Shown piece by piece: positions 41,917-46,144 of a stretch of DNA of 64,000 bases. The stretch's first letter is position 1; each line of letters starts with the position of its first letter. Origin of the DNA: Burkholderiales bacterium (GTDB lineage: Bacteria > Pseudomonadota > Gammaproteobacteria > Burkholderiales > Burkholderiaceae_B); assembly GCA_021299735.1 (NCBI GenBank), contig JAJTEM010000007.1, forward strand, positions 1-64,000, written 5' to 3'. The notes below the pieces were generated by a model, which searched no databases, was not told the origin of the DNA, and saw only the letters and a program-made list of their open reading frames with translations. The translations under genes and the position numbers were made by a program.

Positions 41917-41945
41917 GGAACCATCTGTTGTTATGCCAGCACTCA
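41917..41945 (+). promoter_or_regulatory. HrpL/ECF-type promoter-like box upstream of the first ECF gene
   Basis: GGAACC at 41917-41922, a 16-bp spacer, then GCACTCA at 41939-41945. The Hrp-box consensus of HrpL-class ECF sigma factors is GGAACC-N15/16-CCACNNA, so this differs at one defined base. It lies about 190 bp before the ECF start codon, a long leader, so it may not be the main promoter. Confidence 0.45.
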
Positions 41946-41962
41946 GGACCAAGATAGGAAAT

Positions 41963-42001
41963 TTGCAAATCTTGCTTATCACAACTTGCAAATCTTATAA
42001 A
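41963..42001 (+). promoter_or_regulatory. Direct repeat overlapping a possible sigma-70 promoter
   Basis: TTGCAAATCTT occurs twice (41963-41973 and 41986-41996), starts 23 bp apart. Between and over them lies TTGCTT (41972-41977), 18 bp, TATAAA (41996-42001), a plausible housekeeping promoter. The repeats could be regulator half-sites. This is an alternative source of transcription for the ECF-chaperone pair. Confidence 0.45.
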
Positions 42002-42138
42002 GCAGTACGTCACCTCACCCCTATCCGTGGTGACACCACATTCGGACTTTGAGCAGCCTTGATACGCTGTGGTGTTATTTAAACAATTCACCAAGGCCGA
42101 CCATGATTCCACTCCCGTTTCAATTAGAGGGGCTCGAC

Positions 42139-42714
42139 ATGAAACCGATTGCGCCAAAATTAAAGATCACTGCAATTCAAAGGTGCTCAAGGGCGAATCT
42201 GGAAACAACTCGCTCGGAGTTTGAGTTGTTGGTTGCCAAGCAAGAAAAGCGGCTGCGCAACTTCATCGTCAAACATTTTCGGGATGAAAACGCAGTCGAG
42301 GACGTGTTCCAACAAACATTGATAGAAGCTTACTGCTGCTGGGATAGCTTTAGAGGCGATGCCAAAAGGGCAACATGGCTGTTTGGGATCGCGCTGAATA
42401 TTATTCGCAATACGGCGCGCCGCTCGCCACAGTACAAATTCCATTTCACCTCAGATGAAGACCTTGAAATGGAACAGGCCGAAGGATCTGACCCCATGCA
42501 GCAATGCATGAAAAACGAGTTTAGCATCAAGCTGGAATCAGCGATTGGTAATCTGCCGAATGACCTGCGTGAGACCTTGATTCTTGTTGTTCAGCACGGC
42601 AACTCTTACCAGGAAGCAGCTGACATCTTGGGTATTCCAATTGGCACGGTGCGGTCGCGAATTTCAAGATCACGAGCCCAGCTAAAATCAATTTACGATT
42701 TGTACATGGACTAA
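42139..42714 (+). CDS. ECF-type RNA polymerase sigma factor (first of two)
   Basis: A 191-residue sigma-70-family protein with region 2 (RNFIVKHFRDENAVEDVFQQ; GDAKRATWLFGIALNIIRN) and region 4 helix-turn-helix (SYQEAADILGIPIGTVRSRI). ATG 42139 has GAGGGG upstream. No anti-sigma factor is adjacent. The next gene overlaps its stop codon (TAATG). It is clearly related to the ECF at 45242-45847, sharing TWLFGIALN and IGTVRSR blocks. The setting recalls HrpL/BtrS-type regulators of type III secretion, but target promoters are unknown. Confidence 0.88.
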   Translation: MKPIAPKLKITAIQRCSRANLETTRSEFELLVAKQEKRLRNFIVKHFRDENAVEDVFQQTLIEAYCCWDSFRGDAKRATWLFGIALNIIRNTARRSPQYKFHFTSDEDLEMEQAEGSDPMQQCMKNEFSIKLESAIGNLPNDLRETLILVVQHGNSYQEAADILGIPIGTVRSRISRSRAQLKSIYDLYMD

Positions 42715-43148
42715 TGAGCGAGAATTTGACAACCCAACATGGAGCACTCCACAAGATTCTGGAATCCCTGGGCATGTCACCCAGCGAAACAGAACCATGC
42801 GCTGCATCAGAAGGCTATCGAATTGATTTTGAAAAGAATTTCACCATTGAACTGCAAGATATAGGCGACTCTGATTGCAGGGTAAGCGCAAGAATTTTCA
42901 GCCTGGGCAAATCGTTACAGGTTCAAGAAAATCAAATCAAGCTAGCCCTGAACCTTTTTGACGAAGTGAAAAGCGACATACCCACAGGAATATCAATCGC
43001 AATTTCCAATCACGACAATTGCCTACGCCTTTGCATTGAAATTGTGAGCGATAAGAACGATGTGATCATGACTCGATTTCAAGAATTTGTGCATGTAGCA
43101 TTTGCTTACAAGCAAACCTACTTTCAGCACCGAGGCATGGCTCAGTAG
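42714..43148 (+). CDS. Possible type III secretion chaperone (CesT-like)
   Basis: A 144-residue acidic protein. Its pattern fits class I secretion chaperones: an N-terminal helix with LHKILESLGM, alternating beta strands (YRIDFEKNFTIELQDI), a central helix-and-loop, further strands (CLRLCIEIVSD), and a C-terminal helix FQEFVHVAFAYKQTYF. The ATG overlaps the stop of the upstream ECF gene, so the two are co-translated. Similarity is judged by eye only; no catalytic motif exists for this family. An unrelated small regulatory partner of the sigma factor is the main alternative. Confidence 0.45.
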   Translation: MSENLTTQHGALHKILESLGMSPSETEPCAASEGYRIDFEKNFTIELQDIGDSDCRVSARIFSLGKSLQVQENQIKLALNLFDEVKSDIPTGISIAISNHDNCLRLCIEIVSDKNDVIMTRFQEFVHVAFAYKQTYFQHRGMAQ

Positions 43149-43199
43149 CAAAAACACGCTCTGTAAACAATCACCACCAGTTTTATATCCCCGACTTCT

Positions 43200-43538
43200 C
43201 TACACTCGACTTTGTGCAGCTTTTGTTCGATCACTTAACACTGCCTGTATCCAAAGCCTGAATTTTTCTTTGGCATCGTGCAGATTACCGGCCGATATAT
43301 TCTTGGAAATAATCAGCCTGGAATGATCCGAATTGAAAACACAAGTTTGCTCAAGAGACTTGGCAAGCCAACGCTGGGAAAGCCAATCTCGAAGACAATT
43401 ACTTTCATAGCTATTCAATATCAACGACGCTTGAAAGTCGGATGGAGACAACGAGGACTGCAAAAGTGTGCCATGCCCCAAGCCCTCAATGGGCCTCTCA
43501 TCAACTAAAAACCAGTCTCGAGGCGGGCTTGGTGACAT
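43200..43538 (-). CDS. Hypothetical protein, 112 residues
   Basis: Unrecognised soluble protein, last gene of the minus-strand unit that starts with the second ECF. The end (RLIISKNISAGNLHDAKEKF) has a strand-turn-helix look seen in secretion chaperones, but this is weak. There is no obvious ribosome site; the start lies 14 bp past the preceding stop, so translation is probably coupled. It faces the chaperone-like gene with a 51-bp gap that holds no terminator. Confidence 0.5.
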   Translation of the reverse strand: MSPSPPRDWFLVDERPIEGLGHGTLLQSSLSPSDFQASLILNSYESNCLRDWLSQRWLAKSLEQTCVFNSDHSRLIISKNISAGNLHDAKEKFRLWIQAVLSDRTKAAQSRV

Positions 43539-43552
43539 TGAATTAGAAACGC

Positions 43553-43759
43553 CTAAACGCGGGAGGTATCACTTTGAATTTGCTGCGCCAAACTACGAGG
43601 CGCGGCAAGACCCTGGAATCGCTGCACAGCAAGCGGCTTTAAAGGACGGGAGCTGAGCTCAGACAGAATAGACTGGAAAGTACTGCGCGCAGCGGAGCTG
43701 GTGTGGCTACCTGCACCAATTGTTTTTATGGAAGCAAGCTGAGAATTTATATTGATCAT
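43553..43759 (-). CDS. Small hypothetical protein, 68 residues
   Basis: A short Ser/Ala/Leu-rich polypeptide beginning MININSQLASIKTIG, 39 bp after the sigma-54 activator gene. It has no membrane segment or signal peptide. A 5-bp inverted repeat (ATTGG at 43772, CCAAT at 43784) lies just upstream and there is no clear Shine-Dalgarno sequence. A polar, Ser-rich N-terminus would suit a secreted substrate or needle/rod-type component, but this is only a suggestion. Confidence 0.45.
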   Translation of the reverse strand: MININSQLASIKTIGAGSHTSSAARSTFQSILSELSSRPLKPLAVQRFQGLAAPRSLAQQIQSDTSRV

Positions 43760-43798
43760 TTTGTATTTTTTATTGGCGCAAAACCAATAGACGTAGTT

Positions 43799-45130
43799 TC
43801 ATGAAAATTGAGTGTCTTTGTTGTTCAAATAGTTCCCAGTTTTCTCAAGAATATCGAAACGTTTCATGCGGTAATACAGGGAATGCAATGGAATTCCTAG
43901 GCTTTCACTGGCTGAGCGTGCACACCCACGGTGTGCATTGAGTGTTTCAATCAGCACTGCTTTTTCGAACGCCAGCAAGCGCTGCTTTAAACCCTTCACC
44001 GGCTCGCAACCCGGCTCTGCACAAGGCGAGCCGAGTCCTATGACATGTCGCTGCGCGAATGCATGCAACTCGCGCACATTGCCCGGCCAAGGCCGACTCA
44101 ACAATTCATCAATATCCTCAGTGTCCAGGGTTGGCACTTCCAGCTTGAACTGCGCAGCCACATCATTCAAAAAATGTCGATACAATGGAATAATGTCTTC
44201 AAGTCGCTCTGCCAGGGCAGGAATTCTAACCTGCGAGATACTGAGCCTGAAATGAAGATCTTCGCGAAATTTATTCTGTTCAACCAAAGTTTCGAGCTTG
44301 GCTTTGGTCGAGGCAATGACCCGAAACGATGAATTATAAAACGTGTGGCCACCAAGTCGGATTGCACCACGATATTGCAAAGCGTTCAACAACTTGGCTT
44401 GACATGACAATGGCAGGCTATCCATTTCGTCCAGGTACAGCGTGCCATTGTTCGCAAGCTCCAGCTTGCCCGGTCTGTCTTTTTGGGCACCAGTAAAGGC
44501 ACCAGCCATGACACCAAACACCTCCGCCTCAAATAGCTGTTCGGGCAAGGCAGCGCAATTCACATGTACAAACTCACCCTTTACGCCTGATTGAGCGTGC
44601 AACCAACGCGCGGCTGTGTCCTTCCCGGCGCCGGTAGGCCCAAGCAGTACGGTGTCGACAGGAAGCTTCTTCAGGCGTTGAAGTTGGGATACTGCATGGC
44701 GCATGGGTTCCGACCGAACAAATTCGTCGCTGTATGGACCCACGTTACTTTCAGGCAGTTGCTTTTTACCAAATTCAAATGGTTTGGCGCGCATCAGCTT
44801 TTCAAGAACCTGCACGGCAGCCAAAGGGTTAACCGGGTAAACAATCGAGGCAAAAATGGGTATGTCGTGGTACACATACTCTTGCCAGGGTTTCTCTATA
44901 AAACGAATAATCTGTGTTTCAGGTTTCCTTCCGTGAGCCTTGAAATGCTCAATCAGATTTCCAAGTTGCTCCAGATCTTGATCAACCAGCAACCAATGTG
45001 CGGGCAAGCTTCGTTTACGCAAAAGCTCATCCAGTGAAAGTTCATAGACTGTAGCCTGCATTAACAAGGCTGCTGCGCGCAGCCTACTTTTGAGCTCGGG
45101 CGATTCAATGCAAAGTGTTAACTCGGTCAT
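43799..45130 (-). CDS. Sigma-54-dependent transcriptional activator (HrpR/HrpS-like)
   Basis: Bacterial enhancer-binding protein, 443 residues. The AAA+ core has a variant Walker A GPTGAGKD (164-171), the sigma-54 contact loop GAFTGA (210-215), Walker B LYLDEMD (231-237) and arginine-finger region FREDLHFRLS. A Fis-type helix-turn-helix ends the protein (SASESLGIPLHSLYYRMKR). The first ~130 residues are not a normal receiver: a possible degenerate receiver or unrelated sensing domain. It lies directly downstream of an ECF gene that itself has a sigma-54 promoter, so it probably activates its own operon. No good ribosome site precedes ATG 45130. Confidence 0.88.
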   Translation of the reverse strand: MTELTLCIESPELKSRLRAAALLMQATVYELSLDELLRKRSLPAHWLLVDQDLEQLGNLIEHFKAHGRKPETQIIRFIEKPWQEYVYHDIPIFASIVYPVNPLAAVQVLEKLMRAKPFEFGKKQLPESNVGPYSDEFVRSEPMRHAVSQLQRLKKLPVDTVLLGPTGAGKDTAARWLHAQSGVKGEFVHVNCAALPEQLFEAEVFGVMAGAFTGAQKDRPGKLELANNGTLYLDEMDSLPLSCQAKLLNALQYRGAIRLGGHTFYNSSFRVIASTKAKLETLVEQNKFREDLHFRLSISQVRIPALAERLEDIIPLYRHFLNDVAAQFKLEVPTLDTEDIDELLSRPWPGNVRELHAFAQRHVIGLGSPCAEPGCEPVKGLKQRLLAFEKAVLIETLNAHRGCARSASESLGIPLHSLYYRMKRFDILEKTGNYLNNKDTQFS

Positions 45131-45142
45131 TTGCGGCTACAA

Positions 45143-45170
45143 CACAATGAATGGGATAGCATTCATTGTG
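45143..45170. promoter_or_regulatory. 11-bp perfect inverted repeat in the leader of the activator gene
   Basis: CACAATGAATG (45143-45153) and CATTCATTGTG (45160-45170) flank a 6-bp spacer, 12 bp upstream of the activator start codon. In RNA the stem would occupy the place where a Shine-Dalgarno sequence should be, and none is visible. It is either a dimer-binding operator or a translational control hairpin. Confidence 0.6.
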
Positions 45171-45215
45171 AGCGCTGTGCAATCAGATTCAATCACCACT
45201 TGGAATTAGTCACAC

Positions 45216-45244
45216 TGAGCACTCGCCCGCATTCGTAGTGCTCA
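45216..45244. other. Inverted repeat at the end of the second ECF gene
   Basis: TGAGCAC (45216-45222) and GTGCTCA (45238-45244), 15 bp apart; the right arm contains the ECF stop codon. No T-run follows on the minus strand, so it is more likely an intercistronic stem than a terminator. Confidence 0.4.
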
Positions 45245-45847
45245 ATGGTGTGATTCAGAGTGTGCCATCACCTCGACCCGAAGCATGTCACGGGCCCTTG
45301 ACAGGCGCGAGCGTACTGTGCCGATTGGAAGATCCAGTTCAAGTGCAGCATCCTGATAAGTAAAGCCTTCAAGCAAAACAAGCTGAACCACGGTTTGCAT
45401 TTTGCCCGGCAACTGATCAATTGCAGACTTCAGGGTTTCCATGCGTTCCTGGCGCATCAAAGACTCTTCAGGTTGATAAATGGAATCGGCTGGCATCATG
45501 CTGACTTGTTCTTCGAAATCATCACCTTGAAACCGATAGCTGGTGTCACGGTAACGAAAGTTCTTAACCAGATTCAATGCGATGCCGAACAACCAGGTTT
45601 CAGGCTTGGATTCACCTCGAAAACCAGCCCAATTGCGAAATGCGGCCATGTGGGTTTGCTGAATCAGATCATCAACATAATCTTCGCGGCGAAGATGTTT
45701 GCGCACAAAGTGTGTCAAACGTGATTGCTGCGACTTCAACAGATGCTCCAGTGAGCGAAGTTGTGCTGAAGTCAGCGGTGTTGAGGTGTTCTCATCACTA
45801 CCCGAAACAATGATTTCGAACTGTTGAACGTTTGCGGTATGTTCCAT
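45242..45847 (-). CDS. ECF-type RNA polymerase sigma factor (second of two)
   Basis: A 201-residue sigma factor with region 2 (RKHLRREDYVDDLIQQTHMA; PETWLFGIALNLVKNF) and region 4 (TYQDAALELDLPIGTVRSRL). The ribosome site GAGG is six bases before ATG 45847. It heads a minus-strand operon with the sigma-54 activator and two small genes. A good sigma-54 promoter lies about 40 bp upstream. By analogy with HrpRS activating hrpL, this ECF would be the output of the activator. No anti-sigma gene is adjacent. Confidence 0.88.
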   Translation of the reverse strand: MEHTANVQQFEIIVSGSDENTSTPLTSAQLRSLEHLLKSQQSRLTHFVRKHLRREDYVDDLIQQTHMAAFRNWAGFRGESKPETWLFGIALNLVKNFRYRDTSYRFQGDDFEEQVSMMPADSIYQPEESLMRQERMETLKSAIDQLPGKMQTVVQLVLLEGFTYQDAALELDLPIGTVRSRLSRARDMLRVEVMAHSESHH

Positions 45848-45888
45848 GATCTGCCTCTGCTTGTTTGTGTGTGTGGTAACAAACTTAA

Positions 45889-45904
45889 TGCAGTGTGCAT
45901 GCCA
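45889..45904 (-). promoter_or_regulatory. Sigma-54 promoter of the ECF-activator operon
   Basis: Minus-strand TGGCATGCACACTGCA matches the -24/-12 consensus TGGCACG-N4-TTGCA with two mismatches and keeps the essential GG-N10-GC spacing. Transcription would start near 45878, leaving a leader of about 30 nt to the ECF start codon. An activator of sigma-54 is encoded one gene downstream. Confidence 0.75.
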
Positions 45905-45919
45905 GGACAGAGAAAATTC

Positions 45920-45932
45920 TAAATTATTGATT
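45920..45932 (-). promoter_or_regulatory. IHF-like site upstream of the sigma-54 promoter
   Basis: AATCAATAATTTA on the minus strand is an exact match to WATCAANNNNTTR. It lies 16-28 bp upstream of the -24 element, where IHF commonly bends DNA so that a distal activator can touch sigma-54 polymerase. A second, imperfect copy (AATCAATAAATG) follows within 20 bp in the same AT-rich stretch. Chance matches are common in AT-rich DNA. Confidence 0.5.
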
Positions 45933-46069
45933 TATATGTACATTTATTGATTAGCTCTTAACGTCTGTTAGATTTTTTCTAAAATTCAGGCACCACGGGA
46001 AGCAAAATCTCTAAATCAACACGGGGACAGTCCTAGCCTGACTCCAGTTGAGGTGTAAAATGCGGTCAT

Positions 46070-46144
46070 CTCGCGGTAGTACAATGGATAGTACGAGGCC
46101 CTCCTAAGGCTTAGATACAGGTTCGATTCCTGTCCGCGAGACCA
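46070..46144 (+). tRNA. tRNA-Arg (anticodon CCU)
   Basis: A full cloverleaf can be drawn: acceptor CTCGCGG / CCGCGAG, D stem GTAC/GTAC, anticodon stem AGGCC/GGCTT with loop CTCCTAA (anticodon CCT), T arm ACAGG-TTCGATT-CCTGT, discriminator A, and an encoded CCA. It reads AGG codons. It is a single gene followed at once by a terminator. Confidence 0.95.

Follow-up and report, generated by a model that had tools for sequence, protein, structure and literature searches.

A compact island of six genes in Limnobacter very probably constitutes a master switch for type III secretion that belongs to the core of the genus and is built like the HrpR/HrpS-HrpL cascade. Its promoters connect it with a type III cluster elsewhere in the same assembly, from which we infer that the island regulates the cluster. 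The arrangement is new: a single activator and two ECF sigma factors are detached from the apparatus and are retained even where that apparatus is unfound or decayed.

A six-gene island conserved across Limnobacter

The first-pass annotation had described six genes, arranged as two convergent units, at 41917-45932 of the window (the whole 64,000-nt stretch of DNA that was analyzed), and every open reading frame (ORF) lies where it was placed (Table 1). The plus-strand unit consists of ECF1 and a gene for a 144-aa protein, whose ATG overlaps the ECF1 stop codon; ECF1 has a further in-frame ATG at 42103. On the minus strand lie ECF2, a sigma-54-dependent activator, and genes for proteins of 68 and 112 aa. 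The translated activator carries what we take to be the GAFTGA motif, and the two sigma factors are identical at 66 of 157 aligned columns. The island is flanked on one side by tRNA-Arg(CCT) at 46070-46144, the sole Rfam match, and on the other by a 653-aa ORF that we read as ParE.

Table 1. Genes and candidate regulatory sites of the island, in window coordinates.
Feature	Position	Strand	Evidence
hrp-type box GGAACC-N17-CACTCA, upstream of ECF1	41917..41945	+	14/14 island-bearing genomes
ECF1, ECF-type sigma factor, 191 aa	42139..42714	+	Pfam Sigma70_r2 5.5e-8, Sigma70_r4_2 7.3e-13
144-aa protein, predicted class I type III chaperone fold	42714..43148	+	
112-aa protein, suggested feedback regulator	43200..43538	-	orthologues in 13/13 fetched relatives
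68-aa small protein, suggested secreted or feedback partner	43553..43759	-	14-sequence alignment; pairwise dN/dS
Sigma-54-dependent activator (enhancer-binding protein), 443 aa	43799..45130	-	Pfam Sigma54_activat 8.4e-51, AAA_lid_14, HTH_8
Second hrp-type box, within 3' end of activator gene, 77 nt before 68-aa ORF	43809..43836	-	
ECF2, ECF-type sigma factor, 201 aa	45242..45847	-	Pfam Sigma70_r2 4.4e-10, Sigma70_r4_2 3.2e-13
Sigma-54 (-24/-12) promoter TGGCATGCACACTGCA of ECF2	45889..45904	-	14-15/16 consensus letters, 14/14 genomes
IHF-like site AATCAATAATTTA, 28 nt before sigma-54 site	45920..45932	-	offset unchanged in 12/14 genomes
Candidate activator-binding arm, inverted TTTGAATTTTT-like, at -75	45968..45979	-	

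The activator is present in 14 of the 16 Limnobacter genomes searched. A comparison of synteny, which the first-pass annotation had recommended, placed the six genes at the same chromosomal spot in all 14, and the order of the six orthologues is identical in 13/13 fetched relatives; the 68-aa gene of G034 was recognized by position and alignment only. Pairwise dN/dS ranges from 0.05 to 0.22 for the 68-aa gene (six pairs) and from 0.04 to 0.16 for the 112-aa gene (7 of 10 pairs returned a value), and residues M1, F28, P39 and D64 of the 68-aa protein are invariant among 14 aligned sequences. Because syntenic orthologues occur in every one of the 13 relatives and dN/dS is well below 1, we conclude that the six ORFs are genes, and chance ORFs are ruled out. 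ECF1 is 93-98% identical in ten relatives and 74-79% identical in three. In the one pair tested, G187 and G112, there was no sign of relaxed selection on the island.

Promoter motifs of the island and its putative targets

The sigma-54 promoter and the IHF-like site in front of ECF2 are widely conserved (Table 1); only G204 and G205 gave no match to the IHF pattern. The candidate activator-binding arm recurs at -74/-75 in 11 of 14 genomes. In 9 of 14 it has a facing partner at -109 to -111, which is absent from the best match of G000. Scores of the candidate arm exceed shuffled means only modestly.

A second class of promoter motif is the hrp-type box. In Pseudomonas syringae, an HrpL box, GGAACC-N15/16-CCACNNA, is placed before type III operons (PMC5263251, PMC8303149). 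The similar box that had been proposed at 41917 is real, we conclude, because its GGAACC and CAC are fixed in 14/14 genomes while the spacer varies. It lies 222-234 nt before the chosen ECF1 start in the 14 genomes, farther than the usual 40-85 nt. The box before the 68-aa gene occurs in 13 of 14 genomes and is absent in G196.

As the first-pass annotation had advised, the rest of the genome was searched for promoters like the one at 41917, and the matches include one before sctV. We used the pattern GGAACY-N15-18-CACNNA, which is looser than the HrpL box. Of the 13 sctV upstream regions examined, 12 hold a box that deviates from it by no more than one mismatch (seven of the 12 carry a mismatch). 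Over these 12 regions the mismatches total 7, compared with a mean of 34.2 and a minimum of 21 for 300 permuted motifs, none of which matched the score of the true box. The sctV of G162 has no box, its best candidate showing three mismatches; since this gene comes after other ORFs on the same strand, it did not enter the sum. Nor did the test include the broken sctV of G202, upstream of which the strict pattern gave none.

The position of the boxes provides further evidence. The 289 kb around the type III clusters of 11 genomes contain 24 strict boxes, of which 12 are placed 40-85 nt ahead of an ORF, a placement shared by 2.4% of positions; 393 permuted motifs reached at most 3. The clusters are related and hence not independent. 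Of the 17 boxes in the own genome, 8 precede an ORF by 41-77 nt. These ORFs include sctV, a ZorA-like gene and the 68-aa gene, together with four genes whose N termini are substrate-like. G187 has 5 of 14 sites 40-85 nt before a start, with a spacing of 76 nt at the 68-aa gene. The box is not enriched genome-wide, with 17 matches in the own genome versus 38 for the reversed pattern and, among the matches listed, 14 of 16 genus genomes likewise yielding fewer boxes than reversed-pattern matches, so only its position counts as evidence. In the fetched type III stretches of G112, G131, G203 and G066, no ORF has a strict box at a distance of 40-85 nt; the sole boxes there precede sctV and the ZorA-like gene and carry one mismatch. 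No box precedes the ZorA-like gene of G201 or the CesT gene on contig C25. Among the matches listed, box contexts were examined for G000 (17/17), G112 (15/15), G187 (14/14), G034 (14/14), G205 (16/19), G162 (11/18) and a few elsewhere. Many box sites fall inside genes.

The type III cluster

The first-pass annotation saw no secretion apparatus near the island, which is true of the 64,000-nt window only. Its proposed search for sct genes located a type III cluster on another contig of the assembly, at C19:26293-50930, and thereby ruled out a regulatory island without an apparatus. NCBIfam models match SctV (2.5e-203), SctN (2.9e-151), SctC (2e-99) and SctJ (1.6e-55), as well as SctU, R, S, T and Q, and SctD-, SctL- and SctI-like genes are also present. 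SctR, SctC and SctJ exceed the NCBIfam cut-off; SctV, SctN, SctS, SctT and SctU fall below it with a type III model still as best match, and the SctQ candidate has flagellar FliN as its best match (2e-10) and SctQ as the next (6.9e-7). A study of other Limnobacter genomes cautions that flagellar genes may have been misannotated as type III genes (PMC4557100). We can rule this out here, since the genome has an FlhA-like as well as an SctV-like gene, and its SctC and SctJ score above the type III cut-offs.

The suggestion that the structural genes reside elsewhere on the chromosome holds for 11 of the 14 island-bearing genomes, in which SctJ scores above its cut-off; in the other three (G034, G187 and G205) neither SctC nor SctJ does. 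Two of these three are metagenome-assembled genomes (MAGs), and G034 retains a decayed type III remnant. The cluster of the own genome has a G+C content of 43.7%, against 51.0% for the window. Furthermore, the SctV tree disagrees with that of the activator, so the island and the cluster did not travel together. A Limnobacter type III system has been placed nearest that of Herbaspirillum seropedicae (PMC4224133).

Small proteins of the island

None of the 144-, 112- and 68-aa proteins has a Pfam match, and Pfam, NCBIfam and PDB sequence profiles gave no convincing family for the first two. The first-pass annotation had considered the 144-aa protein CesT-like. Sequence profiles do not bear this out: none of the 14 family members matches the CesT profile PF05932 at E up to 1, and profile comparisons gave probabilities of 5% against the genome's own CesT protein and 4.8% against the 112-aa family. 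A search of 399 genomes of the order with the 144-aa family gave, besides two genus members, only short matches in six (E 0.001-0.01). The structural model does favor the idea, with a predicted alpha-beta3-alpha-beta2-alpha fold as in class I type III chaperones; its best VIA-align rows are SicP (12.4), ExsC (12.0), SigE (11.9) and CesT (11.2-10.8). It seems quite unlikely that the protein is a YbjN-like regulator rather than a secretion chaperone. The two findings named beforehand as jointly refuting the Hrp-like interpretation have split: the lack of CesT similarity is true by sequence profile but the fold fits, and the lack of type III genes is false.

ExsC, the second best fold match of the model, acts with ExsE as a regulatory feedback pair. 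In a comparable system, HrpG is a chaperone that sequesters HrpV, which in turn inhibits the activator HrpS (PMC8228185). By analogy with HrpG-HrpV and ExsC-ExsE, the three small proteins probably inform the switch of the state of secretion.

A putative cascade and its relatives

We take ECF2 as the HrpL analogue. In the cascade that we propose, a signal would render the enhancer-binding protein active and able to bind upstream of ECF2, where, judging from the sites, bending by IHF would assist the start of sigma-54 transcription. The activator probably amplifies itself, because its gene lies directly downstream of ECF2 on the same strand. ECF2 would then steer RNA polymerase to hrp-type boxes, with ECF1 perhaps acting as a second stage or amplifier. 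Targets would include ECF1 and the 144-aa gene, the 68- and 112-aa genes, sctV together with further ORFs in the type III cluster, and scattered genes whose products resemble secreted substrates.

The likeness to HrpR/S-HrpL noted in the first-pass annotation is well supported at the DNA level, by the sigma-54 and IHF-like sites at ECF2 and the boxes at ECF1, the 68-aa gene and sctV. The HrpR/HrpS-sigma-54-HrpL system of Pseudomonas syringae and its relatives shares with the island a sigma-54 promoter and IHF site before the ECF gene, the class of activator, and an ECF box before type III operons. However, HrpR and HrpS are a co-dependent pair, whereas the island has one activator gene; it also has two ECF genes, sits apart from the type III cluster, and is retained where the apparatus is unfound or decayed. 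In Herbaspirillum rubrisubalbicans, which also has an HrpL, type III operons are likewise preceded by hrp-type boxes, GGAACC-N15-CCACTCAAT, but no sigma-54 promoter was found before hrpL, which sits at one end of the cluster (PMC3487950). Bordetella BtrS/BtrA/BtcB similarly combines an ECF sigma factor for type III secretion with a CesT-family chaperone in regulation (PMC10732220); there BtrS is under the control of BvgAS rather than of a sigma-54 activator.

To our knowledge, no pathogen is known in Limnobacter, an aquatic genus. HrpL-type control is described from plant-associated bacteria, with hrpL in or at the edge of the type III cluster (PMC3487950, PMC5263251); in Limnobacter this kind of control seems to belong to the core of the genus. 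The open-licence literature yielded no paper that joins Limnobacter and HrpL. Some Ostreococcus tauri cultures, of an alga, contain Limnobacter in abundance (PMC4224133). The island would offer a direct handle on when and toward whom the genus uses type III secretion, the box a testable list of substrates, and the genus a naturally occurring example of a regulator that has outlasted its apparatus.

Alternative roles for the island

The first-pass annotation had also allowed that the cascade was put to another use. Part of this stands, in that boxes also precede genes that have no type III annotation and three island-bearing genomes lack SctC and SctJ above the cut-off; the other 11 have SctJ above it. 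On this basis the island could primarily be a cascade for contact or envelope responses in general, with a core regulon of its own, type III clusters being optional additions that acquired its box, an explanation that we consider possible but the less probable one. Examples of such a regulon would be an Ig-domain protein and a NarL-type response regulator: a box precedes the gene behind an HlyD-like gene in G112, G187, G162 and G034 (with the Ig domain verified in G187 and G034) and lies 124-148 nt before the response regulator gene in the own genome, G187, G034 and G205 (domain checked in G187). Retention of the island in the three genomes, the conflict between SctV and activator trees, and the conservation of ECF1, which approaches that of ParE in the ten closer relatives but not in the three distant ones, point the same way. 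Nevertheless, the majority of well-placed boxes in the own genome lie at type III genes or at genes whose products resemble secreted substrates, the 144-aa protein is predicted to fold like a type III chaperone, and a low-GC cluster could have dropped out of the two MAGs.

Alternatively, the two ECF factors might read different promoters, ECF2 the hrp-type boxes and ECF1 an unrelated regulon, so that ECF1 would merely be a box target. ECF1 evolves far more slowly than its operon partner (98% versus 76% identity in G112), suggesting other, conserved duties, but the region-4 helices of ECF1 and ECF2 resemble each other, and we regard this division as unlikely.

A ZorA/ZorB-like pair within the cluster

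One of the genes preceded by an hrp-type box is part of a ZorA/ZorB-like pair inside the cluster (PADLOC ZorA1 8.4e-74, ZorB1 4.1e-79), ZorA and ZorB being components of the Zorya anti-phage system. The ZorA-like protein has only 344 aa, compared with 551-727 for the ZorA1 profiles listed. In the own genome the neighbours of the pair are sctU and the genes before sctJ. Among the matches listed from the open-licence literature, none describes a Zorya-type motor in an injectisome; one paper names ZorAB and type III systems separately. More speculatively, and with considerable doubt on our part, the switch may be a permanent chromosomal part that outlives its machine: clusters of different descent would be exchanged under a kept box, a separate regulon would persist where the apparatus is gone, and most clusters would carry a box-controlled ZorA/ZorB-like ion-driven motor, making an injectisome with its own motor. 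The box that marks this pair raises the question of whether ion-driven motors serve some injectisomes.

A conserved regulatory island in Limnobacter

Reading of the ORFs and flanks bore out the first-pass description of six genes, on their respective strands, between parE and tRNA-Arg. Both ECF sigma factors were recognised by Pfam, as was the sigma-54 activator. Profile searches of Pfam and NCBIfam gave no family match for the 144-, 112- and 68-residue proteins; the single NCBIfam match of the 144-residue protein (E 0.13) falls far under that model's cut-off. The source assembly of this contig (C35) comprises 3.23 Mb in 46 contigs and is 91.9% complete.

Among the 16 Limnobacter genomes used for genus searches, the activator is present in 14 at E 1e-80, and in 13/13 of the better ones; the two genomes without a match are 85% and 65% complete. 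All 13 relatives fetched carry the six genes in identical order between parE and a gene for a 905-residue transporter-like protein. One of them (G147) has additional ORFs towards the transporter-like gene. In another (G034) the 68-residue gene encodes 60 residues and was identified solely from position and alignment. A search for the family of the 144-residue protein returned 11 named loci, eight titled Limnobacter and three from MAGs named to class or order only, while a family-wide draw of 200 genomes yielded the protein in 10, all belonging to the genus Limnobacter. Pairwise, unpolarised dN/dS values for the six genes were 0.00-0.16 between G187 and G112 and 0.02-0.13 between G112 and G203, both of which have the type III apparatus.

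Promoter sites and a proposed mechanism

In aligned upstream regions, ECF2 is preceded in 14/14 genomes by a sigma-54 consensus matching at 14-15 of 16 letters, with an IHF-like site exactly 28 nt farther upstream in 12/14. Facing AT-rich arms occur near -110 (9/14) and near -75 (11/14), scoring only modestly above shuffled means. Upstream of ECF1, GGAACC and CAC[CT][CT]A are kept in 14/14 genomes around a variable spacer of 16-17, and a second box, located towards the activator gene's end and ahead of the 68-residue gene, is found in 13/14. PMC8303149 gives the hrp box as GGAACC-N15/16-CCACNNA. The island boxes fit this pattern, although the C preceding CAC is variable in the ECF1 box.

These sites agree with an earlier comparison to HrpR/S-HrpL cascades, in that the island would work like HrpRS-HrpL. 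That system has a HrpR/HrpS pair, whereas the island does not, and partly for this reason we do not class it as a member. Most likely, the activator, IHF and sigma-54 would act at the ECF2 promoter; ECF2, perhaps with ECF1, would then act at the boxes, and the three small proteins may provide feedback. ECF2 is placed before ECF1 because of their promoters.

A type III cluster elsewhere in the assembly

One option in the first-pass annotation was that structural genes lie elsewhere, and the same assembly does contain a type III cluster, on contig C19. It includes one of the assembly's two FHIPEP genes. SctV, SctN, SctU, SctT and SctS have type III NCBIfam models as best matches, yet score under cut-off; the SctQ candidate best matches FliN, SctL is marginally over the Pfam gathering score, and SctD- and SctI-like matches are under it. 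PMC4224133 already describes a Limnobacter type III system, on contigs from Ostreococcus tauri cultures; it is placed there as the sister of Hrp1, closest to the system of Herbaspirillum seropedicae. In the open-licence literature we found no paper combining Limnobacter and HrpL.

Coordinates of features in the source assembly
Feature	Contig	Position	Strand	Remarks
Perfect 12-bp tandem repeat	C35	1-47		3.9 copies, at window edge
ECF1 start	C35	42139	+	Chosen; 42103 is a possible alternative
Type III cluster	C19	26293-50930		SctC, SctJ and SctR over NCBIfam cut-offs
ORFs that look like translocator or substrate genes	C19	26293-31837		Judged from position and size only
136-bp unit, x2.2	C19	31858-32154 (L009:859-1155)		Just upstream of a 273-residue cluster gene; every copy, inspected by eye, reads as a near-identical small ORF of ~36 residues
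ZorA/ZorB-like motor pair	C19	40344-42170 (L009:9345-11171)		PADLOC 8.4e-74 and 4.1e-79
Two transposase-like ORFs, presumably IS3-like	C19	51044-52203 (L005)		Immediately ahead of the sctV box
Overlapping genes for a CesT chaperone and a CAP-domain protein	C25	31416-32896 (L001:1411-2891)		CAP-domain protein of 312 residues

Boxes in the type III clusters

In 12 of the 13 genomes examined, sctV is preceded by a box with no more than one mismatch; G162 has three mismatches, and G202, with a broken sctV, fell outside this test. Over the 12 genomes, 300 permuted motifs do far worse. The 289 kb around clusters in 11 genomes contain 24 strict boxes. Of these, 12 are positioned 40-85 nt ahead of an ORF, compared with at most 3 for permuted motifs (n = 393). 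Other DNA (204 kb, islands included) held 28 boxes: 25 in islands, our genome's sctV box again and two others. The G162 cluster is distant (SctV 40% identical), yet two of its ORFs have a box upstream, at distances of 63 and 66 nt.

The ZorA/ZorB-like pair sits inside the cluster, in our genome after sctU and before sctJ; further loci concerned are L128, L129/L234, L225, L227, L127, L230 and L232. Among 12 clusters looked at, eight have the ZorA-like gene (cut by the contig end in G196), G034 has a remnant, and the gene is absent from G147, G162 and the G204 stretch. Counting the remnant, 8/9 are preceded at 62-120 nt by a box with one mismatch or none, and mismatches total 9 against a mean of 24.6 and a lowest value of 11 for 300 permuted motifs. 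All six ZorB-like N termini read contain SY[SA]DLMT[AS]LM, whose Asp we take to be the motor Asp.

History of island and apparatus

The SctV and activator trees conflict with support, with long branches flagged. SctV groups our genome with G196 (100/100) and G131 with G112/G203 (99/100); the activator groups G131 with G204 (100/99). Together with the cluster boxes, this conflict argues for an old island that stays put and an apparatus that has probably been exchanged, the box being mostly retained.

SctJ is over cut-off in 13/16 genus genomes and SctC in 11/16. Eleven of the 14 island genomes have SctJ, and neither protein is over cut-off in G034, G187 and G205. In G034, an sctV piece (478 residues) and the ZorA-like fragment lie beside a presumably metH-like gene; because both sit inside one contig, the loss is real. 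G187 and G205 are apparently MAGs, and our genome's cluster is AT-rich (43.7% G + C versus 51.0% in the window), so binning loss is possible for these two.

Candidate members of a wider regulon

Of the 17 boxes in our genome, eight lie 41-77 nt ahead of listed ORFs; in two of these ORFs there is a later ATG, 71-75 nt from the box. The remaining nine boxes are at ECF1, farther upstream of ORFs or within genes. Among the proteins behind the first eight boxes, one contains a transglutaminase-like domain (4.6e-6), one carries DUF4116 repeats (2.7e-32), and four have N termini that, in our judgement, appear substrate-like. In relatives, boxes precede genes for a 153-residue protein (G187; the adjoining gene is presumably htpG-like), a 197-residue protein (G187), a 429/435-residue protein beside what we take to be a TetR-like gene (G187; similar gene in G034) and an Ig-domain protein whose gene follows an HlyD-like gene (G187, G034). 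A gene for a NarL-type response regulator also has a box-like site, 124-148 nt upstream, in our genome, G187, G205 and G034 (L012, L140, L202, L205); in all four this gene occupies the same place, following a TRAP-type binding-protein-like gene. Counts of the box pattern alone showed no enrichment in our genome or the genus genomes, and lone sites apart from the conserved ones are therefore leads.

On contig C25, the CesT protein scores 27.7 bits, which is over cut-off. It adjoins the CAP-domain protein, and the two look like a chaperone-substrate pair. A box was sought at this pair and none was found. The surrounding genes look to us like fatty-acid metabolism genes.
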